A stretch of 64,000 bases of DNA from the NCBI GenBank assembly GCA_025451535.1, contig JANWKE010000075.1, positions 62,001 to 126,000 on the forward strand. Direction: 5' to 3'. The notes beneath the pieces are model-generated. The model did not search any database and was not told the origin of the DNA. It saw only the letters and a list, made by a program, of their open reading frames with translations. Shown here in pieces: positions 15,481 through 22,623 of the stretch. A program made the translations under genes and the position numbers. Source of the stretch: Verrucomicrobiia bacterium (GTDB taxonomy: Bacteria > Verrucomicrobiota > Verrucomicrobiia > Limisphaerales > UBA11358). The first letter of the stretch is position 1; every line of letters starts with the position of its first letter.

Positions 15481-17034
15481 ATGTACTCGCCAACACTTGA
15501 AGAATTCTTGAAATTGGCCGGACAGGGAAACCTGATCCCCGTCACGCGCCGCTTGTTGGCCGACATTGAAACCCCATTGTCAGCCTACCGGAAAATTCGC
15601 GGACAGGGCGAATCCTTTCTGTTCGAGTCCGTCGAAGGCGGCGAACATCTGGGCCGCTACTCATTCGTCGGCTGCAATCCGCGCGCGGTCATCCGACAAA
15701 CCGGTGACTGCGTCGAAGTTTTGGAAAATGGCAAGGTCATTGAAAACTTTTCCATTGGTAGGGACGCACTGCCGCGCGTCCAGGCCGACCAGCAGGTCGG
15801 CCCTGCCGTGCGTGATGGTCTGGTCGTCGTCGAGCGCGTAATGAAAAAATACCGGCCCGTGACACTGCCCGGTCTGCCGCGCTTCACCGGTGGCGCGGTT
15901 GGCTTCATAGGGTATGAATTCATTCACGACGTCGAACCGGTGGTGCCGCGCCCGCCGAAGGACGAATTGGGCACGCCGACGATGGTCTTTCTCGTCGCCA
16001 ATCAATTGCTGATTTTTGACCGCGTGGCGCAAACCATCACGATCCTGGTTAACGCGATTCTGGACGATGCGACCAGTCCGGCGGACGCCTATGAAAACGC
16101 GACGAGCGAGATTGAACGGCTCATTTCCCTGCTCGAACAGCCAAGCGAACATCACCCGGTAACGGTGCCCGATGATGTGCCGGTGATTTCGTTTGAATCC
16201 AATCAGACGAAGGAAAAATTTTCTGCCAACGTCCTCAAATCCAAGGAATACATCACCGCCGGCGACATCATCCAGGTCGTCGGTTCACAACGCTTTTCCG
16301 CGCCGGTCAAGGCATCGCCACTGGACATTTACCGCGCGGTGCGTTCCATCAATCCATCCCCCTACATGTTTTTGCTGGAATTGGAGGGCTTCTCGCTGGT
16401 TGGCGCGTCGCCGGAAATTCACGTGCGTTGCGAGGACGCCAAGGTTGAAATCCGCCCGATTGCCGGCACGCGGCGCCGCGGGAAAAACGAGGAGGAAGAT
16501 TCGGCCCTGGAAAAGGAACTGCTCGCCGACCCGAAGGAACGTGCCGAGCACGTGATGCTGGTGGATCTCGCGCGCAACGACATCGGGCGCGTGTGTGATT
16601 TTGGCAGCGTGCAGGTGAAGGAATTGATGACCATCGAGCGTTACAGCCACGTCATGCACATCGTCTCGCAGGTGGAGGGCAAACTGTCCGCCGGTAAAAC
16701 GCCTTACGATTTGATGCGCGCAACCTTCCCGGCCGGCACGGTCAGCGGCGCGCCGAAAATCCGCGCCATGCAAATCATTGCCGAACTTGAGCAGACTGCG
16801 CGCGGGCCGTACGCCGGCTGCGTTGGCTACTTTTCTTTCAACGGCAATCTGGACACCTGCATCACCCTCCGGACTGCGCTCGTCAAGGACGGTAAAGCCT
16901 ATATTCAAGCCGGCGGCGGTTGGGTAAACGATTCCACGCCCGACGGCGAATTTCAGGAGACGGTGAACAAATCCATGGCCATGCGCAAAGCCGTCGCCAT
17001 GGCGGAAGGATTTGCGAAAAATTCCGGCGTTTGA
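15481..17034 (+). CDS. trpE: Anthranilate synthase component I
   Basis: [95 protein letters not shown]. Start 15481 preferred over ORF-track 14938. Confidence 0.94.
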
Positions 17035-17038
17035 AGTA

Positions 17039-20000
17039 TCAATGCTTTTCTTCGCGTGGGTTGCGGTTGTGGGCCATGAAGTAAAGCAATGGCACGGCCA
17101 CCGGCGCGATGATCATCGAAACCAGGCTGCCGGCCATCAGCGAAATCGCCAGCCCCTGGAAAATCGGGTCGAACAGGATCACCGTCGCCCCCACCACCAC
17201 TGCCAGCGCCGTGAGCATGATAGGCCGGAACCGGATCATGCCCGCCTCGACGACGGCTTCCTTCAGTGGTCGGCCTTCCGCCAACCGCAGCTCGATGAAG
17301 TCCACGAGGATAATGGAATTGCGTACCACAATGCCCGCCCCGGCCATGAAACCAATCATCGAAGTTGCCGTGAAGAAGGCATCCAACACGCCGTGCGCCG
17401 GCAAAATGCCCACCAGCGAGAAGGGAATTACCACCATGACAATCAACGGCGTGAGGAACGAGCGAAACCAGCCGACCATCAGGATGTAAATCAGTACCAG
17501 CACCGCCGCGAACGCCAGGCCGAGGTCGCGAAAAACTTCAATCGTGATGTGCCATTCTCCGTCCCATTTGATGGCAGGCGCGTTGTCGGTGAACGGCTGG
17601 ACGGCGTTGTAAATCCTTACCGTAGCCGCGCTCGTAAGAGCGCGGCCATCCCGGCTTGAAGCCGAAGAAGTTTGCTGCGGACTCACGTTCGCAGCTACGC
17701 CGCCAAAATTCCGCGCATCGAGTTGCCGGATCGCCTTGTTCATTTTCAGAATTGCGTAAACCGGGCTCTCGATGGAACCGGCCACGTCGCCGATGACATA
17801 GGTCACGGGCATGAGGTTTTTGTGATAAATACTTTTGTCAGTGATGGTGTGCTCGACGGTTACCAGTTCACGCAACGGCACGAGCGGCGCTGCCGTATTC
17901 GCCGACCCCGGTTCGGGCAGAGCGTTGGCGTCACCGGACCGCACGCGCAGCGCGAGCAATTCCTCCGGGCTGGTCCGGCTCGCCAGCGGCAGTTGGAAAA
18001 CAATGTTTACGTCCTCCTTTTCGCGGGGAACGTGGAGCAGATCCACGGATTCGCCGCCGACCGCCACCCGCAGCGTTTCGGAAATGGTCTCGGCGCTGAT
18101 GCCATGCAACGCGGCCTTCTCCTTGTCGATGACGAAACGCACCTTCGGCTGGTCGGCCTCAATATACCAGTCGGTGTCCACCACACCGGAAGTGTTATGG
18201 AAAATATCAATGACCTTTCGTGCGAGTAAGAGGCGGCTCTGCTCGTCCGGGCCGTAAATTTCTGCGACCAACGTCTGCAACACCGGCGGGCCGGGCGGAA
18301 CTTCGGCGACTGCTGCTCGCGCACCGTATTGGGCAGCGATGGCGGCAACGCGCGGACGCACCCGTTTGGCAATCTCGTGGCTCTGCGCGCGGCGTTCGTT
18401 CTTCGGCAGCAAATTGATTTGAATGTCGGCGATGTTCGCGCCGCGCCGCATGAAATAATGGCGCACGAGGCCGTTGAAATTGAATGGCGACGCAACACCG
18501 GCATAGACCTGGTAATCGGTCACTTCCGGCTCGGTGCGCACGGCGGCGGCGATTTCGCGCGCGGCCTCGGTGGTGCGCTCCAGGGAACTGCCCTCCGGCA
18601 TGTTGAGGATGATCTGGAATTCGCTCTTGTTGTCGAACGGCAGCATTTTGACTTTCACGAAGCCGATGGCGACGAGCGTCATCGAAACCAGGAGCAGCAC
18701 GACGAGGCCGCCGAGAAAAACGAATCGCCGGCGCGACTGTGCGATGAGTGGTTCCATCAGCAGCAAATAAACACGGCTGAAGAGATTTTCTTTGTAGGAG
18801 CCGACGTGAGGAGGCTCTAACTTGCTATCACTTTCCACTTTTTCTGTCAGAGCCTCATTACCTCGGCTCCTACGTTTCCATTGGAGAATCCGGATGCTGG
18901 CCCAGGGCGTAACCATGAACGCGATGGCCAGCGAGAAGAACATCGCGGCGCTCGAACCGATGGGAATCGGCCGCATGTATGGCCCCATCAATCCGCCGAC
19001 AAATGCCATGGGCAGCACGGCAGCGATTACCGCAAACGTGGCGAGGATGGTCGGGTTGCCGACTTCGTTGATGGCCTCGACGGCGATGGCGCTCCATTTT
19101 CGGCCCTGGTTGCCGGGCAGATGAAAATGGCGGACGATATTTTCAACCACCACCACGGCGTCGTCCACCAGGATGCCGATGCTGAAAATGAGCGCAAAGA
19201 GCGTGATGCGGTTCAGCGTGAAACCATAGAGATAAAAGACCAGCAGGGTGAGCGCAAGCGTGGACGGAATGGCGATGGCCACGATGAGGGACTCACGCCA
19301 GCCCAGCGCCAGCAGAATCAGGAGTGACACGCCAACGACCGCGATGAGCATGTGCCAGAGCAGTTCGTTGGATTTTTCCTCCGCGGTTACGCCGTAATTC
19401 CGTGTGACCGACACCTGCACGTCGGCGGGAATAATGCGACCCTTGAGCGTGTCAATTTTTCTGAGAACTGTATTGGCGACGGTGATGGCGTTGGCCCCTG
19501 GTCGTTTGGCGATAGCCAGGGTGACGGCGGGTTGTTCATCGTAGCGCAGGCTTCCAGCCTGCGGGTTCACGGAGCCTCCCGGCTCCGTGTTTCGACCGGC
19601 GGCAGGGATGCCGCCAGAACTCGCAGGCTGGATGCCTGCGCTACCAGTCGCTGCGCCGTTACCAAACAGCACATATTGATTCGGCTCTTCCGCGCCGTCC
19701 ACGATGACCGCTACGTCGCGCAGGTAAACCGGCTTGCCGCCGAAAACGCCCACGACCACGCTGCCGACGTCCTCGGCGCCGGCCAGGAAGCCACCGGTTT
19801 CGATCACAACCTCCTTGTTGTTACTGGTCAAGCCACCGGCGACATACTGGCGATTGGCTTGCTGCAGCATGGGAATCAAACCCACGGGACTGAGGTTGCG
19901 TGAAGCCAGTTTGGCCGGGTCAAGCAGCACCCGCACTTCGCGCCGGCTGCCGCCGATGAGGGTGGTCCCGGCCACTTGCGGCACCTGTTTCACCGCATCA

Positions 20001-20527
20001 TCCACCTGCGCCACGAGCCGGCGCAGCGTCAAATGATCGTAACGTGCGCTGTGAAACGTCAGGCAGAGAACCGGCACGTCGTCAATGGACCACGCCTTGA
20101 TGAGCGGTTGCGAAACGCCATGCGGGATTTTGTCGTAGTTGGATTGCAACTTCTGGTTGAGCTTCACAAGGCTGAGTTGCATGTCCTCGCCGACTTTGAA
20201 CCGTACGATCGCCAACGATTGGCCTTCGCTCGAAGTGGAATAGATGTATTCGACGCCGGGAATTTCCCACAGCAGTTTCTCCATCGGCCGGGTAACGCGT
20301 TCCTCGACTTCCCTGGCGCCGGCGCCGGGCATGGTGACAAGCACGTCCACCATCGGTACCTTGATTTGCGGCTCCTCCTCGCGCGGCAGCAAGAGTACCG
20401 CGAACACACCGAGCAACACCGACGCGATGATGATGAGCGGCGTGAGTTTGGACTCAATGAACGCCTGTGCCACGCGGCCGGCAATGCCCAGCGGCGCGGG
20501 AGTTGAAATTGGAATTTCAGATTTCAT
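17039..20527 (-). CDS. RND (AcrB/CusA-superfamily) efflux transporter carrying three in-frame repeat-derived insertions
   Basis: [83 protein letters not shown]; typical RND topology. Start 20527 preferred because the ORF-track extension to 20641 translates a repeat. Confidence 0.9.
17622..17698. repeat. REP/BIME-like element B (77 bp) inside the RND CDS
   Basis: gtag-ccgcgctc-gtaa-gagcgcgg ... spacer 29 nt ... inverted unit gtag-ctgcgaac-gtga-gtccgcag read on minus; ends CTAC. Confidence 0.85.
18794..18873. repeat. REP/BIME-like element C (80 bp) inside the RND CDS
   Basis: gtaggagccgacgtgaggaggctc ... 32-nt spacer ... gagcctcattacctcggctcctac; the two 24-nt arms match at 19/24 positions when one is reverse-complemented, with identical stems. 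Confidence 0.85.
19541..19644. repeat. REP/BIME-like composite element A (104 bp, four consecutive hairpins) inside the RND CDS
   Basis: gtagcgcaggcttccagcctgcg ... cgcaggctggatgcctgcgctac: arms 22/23 identical after reverse complement. Between them cacggagcc-tccc-ggctccgtg and ggcggca-ggga-tgccgcc. Confidence 0.88.
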
Positions 20528-20573
20528 GCCGGGAGACAGAGCGGGCCGACAAAATGTTGAGGCTTGTTTACAC

Positions 20574-20770
20574 TCGCCCTCACCCCGGCCCTCTCCCCCG
20601 GGGAGAGGGAGAGCGAAGTGACGCCGCTGGATAACTCGCAAGTCCTGGTTGCAATCACCCGCACCAAGTGATTCACGGCAAAGAATATCTGGTCACCAAG
20701 CCTGTTCGATGCGCTAGCTGACGGGATAATTTTCTCCCTCTCCTGGGGGAGAGGGCCGGGGTGAGGGCGA
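20574..20770. repeat. Inverted-repeat pair, about 38 bp each (element D), between adaptor and RND genes
   Basis: Left tcgccctcaccccggccctctcccccggggagagggaga; right arm reverse complement tcgccctcaccccggccctctcccccaggagagggaga. Confidence 0.9.
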
Positions 20771-20774
20771 ACGT

Positions 20775-21797
20775 TCATTTCACCTCCACCGGCTGCCCGT
20801 CGGTCAGCCGGGCGGCGCCGCCGACCACCACCCGTTCACCCCCTTCCACGCCTGAAACCAGTTCGACCTCGTCGCCAACACGTTTGCCGGTTTTGACGAT
20901 GCGCAATTGCGCGTGGTCGCCCGTCACTACGAATACCAGTTCCATTTCCCCGCGCTGTAACACGGCCGCGGCCGGCACACGCAGCGCCGAAGTTTCGCCG
21001 ACCGGCACGGCCACCCGGCCGAACTGGCCGGCGCGCGGACCGGGTGTCGATGGCAAATCCAGTTTGACCAGGAACGTGCGGCTGTTGGGATCGGCAGACG
21101 GCGCAATTTCGCTGACGACACCGGCGAGTTCGTTGCTGACGCCGGATAAGCGCACGCCCAGCTTGTCGCCAAGCGCGAGTCGGTCGATAACTGCTTCCGG
21201 CACGTCGGTTTCAAGCTGCAAATCACGGGCATCCTCCATTTCCAGCAACGGCTTGCCGGGCGCAGCGAGATCGCCCACGTCGGCATATTTACGGGTGATG
21301 ACCCCCGCAAAGGGCGCGGTGACCCTGGTGTAACCGAGCAGGGTCTTTGCTTCCGTCGCCGCCGCATCGGCCACACGGAATTTTGATTGGGCACTGTCGT
21401 ATTCGGATTGCGAAAGGATTTTCTGCTGGATCAGATCCGTGGCGCGTTTCAAATCACTTTCGGCCTGCTGGCGCACGGCGATGGCTTGATCTGTCTGAGC
21501 CTGGACTTCGCGCGCATCGAGTTGGACCAACAGCTCACCCGCCTTCACATCCTGGCCGGGCACGACCTGCATCTGCTCGATCTTGCCGCTGACCTTGGCT
21601 TCGATGACAGAGTGCAATTTGGCGCGCACTGTGCCCACGACCTCCTCCGTGGCCACGCGGCTTTTGCTTTCGGCAACCTGTGCCTGCACGGAAACTGCCG
21701 GCAAAGCCTTCGCGACGTCCGCGGGTTTGCGTCCGCAACCGTTCAAAATGAGTGCCACCAGCAACAGCGCGGCAGTGGGGAAATTGAGCCGGTTCAT
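20775..21797 (-). CDS. RND efflux periplasmic adaptor (HlyD/MFP family)
   Basis: Lipobox-like LILNGC; KLHSVIEAKVSGKIEQMQVVPGQDVKAGELLVQLDAREVQAQ...; TRVTAPFAGVITRKYADVGDLAAPGKPLLEMED. Confidence 0.92.
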   Translation of the reverse strand: MNRLNFPTAALLLVALILNGCGRKPADVAKALPAVSVQAQVAESKSRVATEEVVGTVRAKLHSVIEAKVSGKIEQMQVVPGQDVKAGELLVQLDAREVQAQTDQAIAVRQQAESDLKRATDLIQQKILSQSEYDSAQSKFRVADAAATEAKTLLGYTRVTAPFAGVITRKYADVGDLAAPGKPLLEMEDARDLQLETDVPEAVIDRLALGDKLGVRLSGVSNELAGVVSEIAPSADPNSRTFLVKLDLPSTPGPRAGQFGRVAVPVGETSALRVPAAAVLQRGEMELVFVVTGDHAQLRIVKTGKRVGDEVELVSGVEGGERVVVGGAARLTDGQPVEVK

Positions 21798-22314: not shown

Positions 22315-22623
22315 ATGTCAAAGGAAAAGTTTGGACGTGTGGTTGTCGCGGAGGAACTCCAACGAATCGCGACCCGGTTCAAGATGCTGGGCGAGCCGAT
22401 GCGGCTGCGGATTTTGCAGGCAGTCTGCCAGGAACCGCACACGGTGAACGACATTGTGAACGCCACCGGCTCGACGCAAGCGAATGTGTCCAAGCACCTG
22501 GCGCTGTTGGCTGCCGCCGGCATCCTCACCCGTAAAAAGGACGGTCAGCGCGTCTATTACGGCATGAAGGACCAAATGACGGTCAAATTATGCGAGTTGG
22601 TGCGGTCACAGCTGGTAGAGTAA
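22315..22623 (+). CDS. ArsR-family winged-helix regulator
   Basis: FKMLGEPMRLRILQAVCQEPHTVNDIVNATGSTQANVSKHLALLAAAGILTRKKDGQRVYYGM. Confidence 0.92.
   Translation: MSKEKFGRVVVAEELQRIATRFKMLGEPMRLRILQAVCQEPHTVNDIVNATGSTQANVSKHLALLAAAGILTRKKDGQRVYYGMKDQMTVKLCELVRSQLVE

Follow-up and report, generated by a model that had tools for sequence, protein, structure and literature searches.

How can the gene of a bacterial efflux pump accommodate three different palindromic repeats and still be read from one end to the other? This question is raised by a window of 64,000 nt (the whole stretch of DNA that was analysed) on contig 75 of a draft metagenome assembly of 4.40 Mb in 188 contigs from an uncultured member of the Verrucomicrobiota, here called G000, in which a single gene of the RND family contains three elements, A, B, and C, that begin with GTAG and end with CTAC. 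An initial annotation of this DNA had described them as repeats of the REP/BIME type, inserted in frame and belonging to the kind mobilised by RAYTs, the REP-associated HUH tyrosine transposases. Upon rechecking, the coordinates, the lengths of 77, 80, and 104 bp, the terminal GTAG and CTAC motifs and the unbroken pump frame were all found to be correct, and A, B, and C represent three distinct families inside one transporter gene. It is very likely that all three are GTAG REP/BIME elements belonging to the RAYT kind, which became inserted into a functional pump and whose peptides are read through.

The features of the window, together with the host genes of relatives that are discussed below, are collected in Table 1. 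The true start of the pump is probably Met39, at position 20527. Orthologues of the pump are present in many relatives, and the nearest named genomes that carry it are Verrucomicrobiota MAGs, one of which bears the label 'Verrucomicrobia subdivision 3'. Repeats of the CCCTCTCCC/GGGAGAGGG type flank the 5' end of the gene (20575-20613 and 20729-20769); the first of these is read as an N-terminal extension of the pump, and further copies of this type occur at other loci of G000. The neighbour of the pump gene, trpE, harbors a fourth REP-like element, which covers TrpE residues 93-109, a region with extra residues in comparison to anthranilate synthases of the PDB, and whose family is that of the repeat found beside a RAYT gene of the same genome (L097).

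Table 1. Positions of the pump locus features in the window, and loci of relatives in which a RAYT gene lies in frame within a host gene.
Feature	Position or locus	Strand	Genome	Remarks
RND efflux pump gene	17039..20641	minus	G000	1200-aa open frame; PF00873 ACR_tran, E 6.6e-155
Membrane-fusion partner of the pump, HlyD/CusB-type	20775..21797	minus	G000	PF16576, PF13437
Putative ArsR-like regulator, divergent	22315..22623	plus	G000	suggested by the ORF list and sequence resemblance
Element A	19541..19644		G000	104 bp, four-hairpin, BIME-like, GTAG...CTAC; pump residues ~333-367, periplasmic porter domain
Element C	18794..18873		G000	80 bp, inverted 28-nt arms GTAGGAGCCGACG...; pump residues ~590-617, cytoplasmic TM6-TM7 loop
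Element B	17622..17698		G000	77 bp, three hairpins GTAGCCGCGCTC...; pump residues 982-1008, directly before TM8
Fourth element, REP-like, shorter	15758..15807		G000	GTAGGGACGC...GGTCGGCCCTGCC; in frame in trpE
AlaRS with in-frame RAYT	L273, L274, L275, L276, L279		G004, G021, G026, G040, G057	
ClpB with in-frame RAYT	L267, L268, L269		G006, G014, G031	
DnaE with in-frame RAYT	L264, L265		G026, G035	
ThrRS with in-frame RAYT	L280		G045	
DinG-type helicase with in-frame RAYT	L266		G030	

All three elements possess inverted arms, of 43 nt in A, 26 nt in B, and 28 nt in C, as in a dimer or BIME arrangement, and as single strands they fold better than their dinucleotide shuffles, with z-scores of -11.2 for A, -5.5 for B, and -5.8 for C (0 of 200 shuffles folded equally well). 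The paired inverted hairpins with a GTAG foot that had been described for each element were recognized in A and B; C has the inverted arms and the GTAG motif, but its best fold is one long hairpin in which both 28-nt arms are paired, rather than two small hairpins. A loose scan for GTAG hairpins over the whole window yielded 6 matches as compared to 1-6 in shuffled sequence, which is not significant; this generic count was thus dropped as evidence, and significance rests on repetition. Element A has 27 matches in G000 at approximately 19 places, B has 5 matches at 4 places only, and C has 41 matches at approximately 30 places, so that none of the three is single-copy, a possibility that the initial annotation had left standing. 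When base composition and GTAG ends are held constant, an open frame is expected by chance with a probability of 0.70 for A, 0.67 for B, and 0.26 for C; an open frame is therefore unremarkable by itself, and is accounted for by survival under selection.

Alignment of pump homologues (28 sequences, later 34), which had been proposed as a test for gaps at the three peptides, revealed that the B peptide is missing from the orthologues, and the A peptide from most of them. Element B adds 22 residues that are found in no other aligned sequence. Element A adds 31 residues, and within the alignment is otherwise present only in G022, where a 104-bp A element, 86% identical, occupies the identical nucleotide site; in G064 a different, hairpin-rich cassette lies at precisely this site (L241), and in G002 a short hairpin is found there (L065). 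Element C occupies a loop that is naturally variable in length, and stands in place of nearly all of the native loop (87 vs 81 nt). The expectation that each insertion keeps the frame by bringing a 1-mod-3 number of extra bases proved to be wrong, since native bases were lost instead: relative to the closest orthologue, A lengthens the gene by a net 93 nt (104-11) and B by 66 nt (77-11), with a net change of about 80-74 nt at C, and it is the 2-mod-3 number of native bases missing at A and B that restores the frame. To our knowledge, insertions of the IS200/IS605 type are not known to leave such a deficit of native bases, which counts against the RAYT interpretation. Target-site duplications, a trait of DDE-type MITEs, were not visible at the pump inserts, where the empty sites are not clean.

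The pump is not the only host of these repeats in G000. At least 11 other genes recognized by Pfam carry copies in frame, including genes for a Ser/Thr kinase, HypF, DnaX, PheT, HrpB and an ETF-QO-like protein (A-type), a PD-(D/E)XK nuclease, a phosphodiesterase and a U32 peptidase (C-type), and a GT9 transferase and an ABC-F protein (B-type); the alignments of PheT and HrpB to their PDB relatives break at the insert. The genome-wide search for copies, and for the share of them inside ORFs, identified clear in-frame intragenic cases of A at roughly 7 of the 19 places, such fractions being counts over matched loci only, while several copies are intergenic. Ambiguous cases, all N-terminal, concern OEP, apiosidase, MGDG synthase and altronate dehydratase. 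It is of note that in the kinase (L002, G000:C45) the A-type element lies within the activation segment, between the DFG and APE motifs. In two related genes, one of them apiosidase-like (L015 and L024, G000:C185 and C127), REP elements that resemble each other lie at the same place near the N-terminus.

The consequences for the protein were approached through sequence divergence and structure prediction. Pairwise ω values were obtained by the Nei-Gojobori method, and are rough where synonymous divergence is high; in comparison to G024 the pump gene has an ω of 0.086, indicative of purifying selection. Between G000 and G022, insert A displays an ω of approximately 1.0 over 35 codons, whereas the remainder of the gene has an ω of 0.15; the stems of the insert are conserved while its loops vary, as expected for repeat DNA. 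The AlphaFold model of the pump (pLDDT 82.7) retains the RND fold, its best PDB matches being pumps of the AcrB/OqxB type (TM 0.74-0.80, query-normalised). The three longest internal segments of low confidence coincide with the inserts, at 297-327 for A, 553-579 for C and 947-966 for B (protein numbering minus 38), although low pLDDT is partly expected here because the alignment has no partners at these positions, which biases confidence downwards. The model thus suggests a pump that would work with three floppy extra loops, in the periplasmic porter domain, between TM6 and TM7 in the cytoplasm, and before TM8.

Together, these results establish that A, B and C are multi-copy insertions that keep the frame and lie in loops. 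They very probably reflect a scheme in which three non-autonomous, GTAG-tagged REP/BIME families entered a working RND pump gene, each insertion being accompanied by the loss of a few native bases, and in which the only surviving outcomes were those in frame, devoid of stops, and in surface loops. The pump would then be read through, with three extra peptides of approximately 25-35 residues that are mostly unstructured; we infer that these peptides are translated.

Other explanations have to be weighed against this scheme. The peptides could be native variable loops, their palindromes being coincidental or the product of faulty assembly, and the natural length variation of the C loop would fit such an idea; it is however scarcely credible in view of the presence of the same repeats at many other places of the genome and of fold z-scores that range from -5.5 to -11, and it is refuted for A and B. 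An assembly artefact, which the initial annotation had entertained, is unlikely because a second genome, assembled independently, has A at this very site. A gene that holds three insertions might also be a gene in decay, in which insertions are tolerated since function is already gone. The full open frame, the intact RND sequence and predicted fold, the intact adaptor gene next to it, and the purifying selection detected in the comparison with G024 all speak against decay, which we regard as highly improbable. The opposite notion, that in-frame REP peptides have been selected as useful pump loops, for instance in regulation or in contacts with partners, could draw on the reuse of the site A loop, which is occupied by A in G000 as well as in G022, and by a different hairpin cassette in G064; nevertheless, co-option appears improbable, given that insert A evolves at an ω close to 1.0 within a gene that is otherwise constrained, that the sister genomes G024 and G011 have no A, and that the inserts are predicted to be unstructured.

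That one site has been used repeatedly across species could reflect separate insertions, or one insertion followed by losses or exchange. Element A may have entered the pump a single time, in the common ancestor of a clade of five species, and then disappeared from G024 and G011; alternatively, G000 and G022 acquired it independently. Its nucleotide position, orientation and length are identical in the two genomes, and a run of sites beside the insert groups G000 with G022. On the other hand, the tree joins G000 and G024 with 95-99% bootstrap, synonymous divergence is 0.16 in the insert as opposed to 0.91 in the gene, and the empty site of G024 resembles those of outgroups G045 and G030, and a single insertion is possible, though the less likely history. 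Local divergence was also used to look for gene conversion at the shared site, and the short shared run that was detected is suggestive but too small. A single-insertion history would in any case be compatible with insertion of A as a REP/RAYT element.

The origin proposed initially for all three families, through RAYTs, is supported for A, since in three relatives (G008, G021 and G024) RAYT genes have A-type elements on either side; for B and C we infer such mobilisation. In a further relative, A-type elements are repeated in tandem every ~139 bp next to a RAYT gene (L253, G009:C81:5300-8300). Over 59 genomes, the A-type RAYT subfamily and A elements co-occur (12/14 with vs 13/45 without, Fisher p = 3e-4), a statistic that is only indicative because the species are related. 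RAYT genes flanked by B or C repeats were not found, and none of the RAYTs found in G000 is bordered by ends of the A, B or C type; the best matches to the A-type RAYT in this genome have E values of only ~1e-19, and both RAYTs with GTAG flanks (L096 and L097) have ends that differ from those of A, B and C. Three other loci with IS200-like and RAYT-like genes (L093-L095) were set aside as partners, GTAG hairpin repeats being absent beside them. We know of no direct demonstration in cells that RAYTs mobilise REPs.

In this group of genomes, it is not only the repeats that reside within genes. In G000, a complete RAYT element of 604 bp with GTAG ends lies in frame in priA (L096, G000:C188:7899-11240, element 1370-1973), in the linker that precedes the Walker A motif, and the encoded RAYT retains the catalytic HUH motif and the YIxxNP motif. 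The same PriA RAYT is found in G024, with a core that is 91% identical and an ω of 0.15 (bootstrap 95% range 0.07-0.27). Its synonymous divergence between the two genomes is 0.31, vs 0.83-1.18, and its immediate flanks are near-identical; recent transfer or reinsertion was considered as an explanation for this low divergence, which the flanks do not settle. The same linker holds RAYTs in G018, G030, G031 and G035. The PriA linkers of G008 (L215) and G021 (L217) are also enlarged, by other repeat-encoded peptides. RAYTs are present in frame in five further host genes (Table 1), while the AlaRS case of G037 has a frame that is broken upstream. Where it could be measured, ω of the RAYTs inside these hosts is 0.04-0.16, which points to purifying selection, with synonymous sites saturated in several. 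Six genomes were checked for each gene, and in all of them the AlaRS or PriA that bears a RAYT is the sole copy found; these host proteins thus very probably work despite the insertion. No report of RAYT fusions with PriA or AlaRS, or of in-frame RAYTs, was found in the open-access literature.

These observations lead us to propose, tentatively, that the RAYT/REP system of this clade may be compatible with coding sequence and intein-like without splicing: stop-free elements would reuse the same loops of conserved proteins, RAYTs would be translated inside the sole copies of AlaRS, PriA and other proteins, whose essentiality would both protect and express the transposase, and the pump inserts would be its non-autonomous members. 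Hairpin repeats may thereby add protein segments rather than destroy genes; should their peptides be translated, they would represent a steady source of new protein segments in these bacteria, and not of gene loss only. The RAYTs in essential genes also make it testable how REPs and RAYTs persist despite the fact that their movement is rarely seen. With regard to annotation, RAYT domains and REP peptides in AlaRS, PriA, ClpB and RND pumps of Verrucomicrobiota should be read as insertions and not as new domain families.

Among known systems, the closest precedent is that of Di Nocera et al. (2013), who described GTAG REPs in frame inside genes, with the highest number in Opitutus terrae (Verrucomicrobia), at 20-30 residues per insert, as opposite-orientation dimers and sometimes two per gene, as in two uvrA genes, many of them in replication and repair genes (PMC3733652). 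The statement that such elements are normally intergenic is correct in general, but in-frame intragenic cases have been published, above all in a verrucomicrobium; extragenic location, which none of the three pump elements displays, is typical of GTAG REPs and BIMEs without being strictly defining, because of this published minority (PMC3733652). GTAG hairpins, inverted dimers and in-frame intragenic positions are common to both sets, whereas the locus described here differs by its three families in one transporter gene, its elements of three or four hairpins, a site reused between species, and complete RAYT genes in frame in essential genes. The REP/BIME elements of E. coli and Pseudomonas share with A, B and C the GTAG foot and the paired inverted units, and have RAYTs between their own repeats, but are mostly extragenic, while a large share of the A copies is coding and in frame. 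The analogy with Rickettsia palindromic elements drawn in the initial annotation is apt and partly published (PMC3733652): these too are mobile palindromes, inserted in frame into a large number of unrelated genes, and ORFs contain almost half of the copies reported for R. conorii (review PMC10969869). Some of them end in CGTC, a class apparently without a dedicated transposase (PMC3733652); the pump elements were not filed with them because their ends are GTAG and CTAC. A-type copies also flank RAYT genes. Inteins resemble the RAYT-bearing AlaRS and PriA in being lodged in frame inside essential conserved proteins; in Pfam searches, however, neither the pump nor the proteins that carry a RAYT displayed an intein domain, splicing is not suggested, and the sites used are a variable PriA linker and pump loops. 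What appears to be new in comparison to these systems is the combination of three families in one gene, the repeated use of a site across species, and the presence of whole RAYTs within essential genes.
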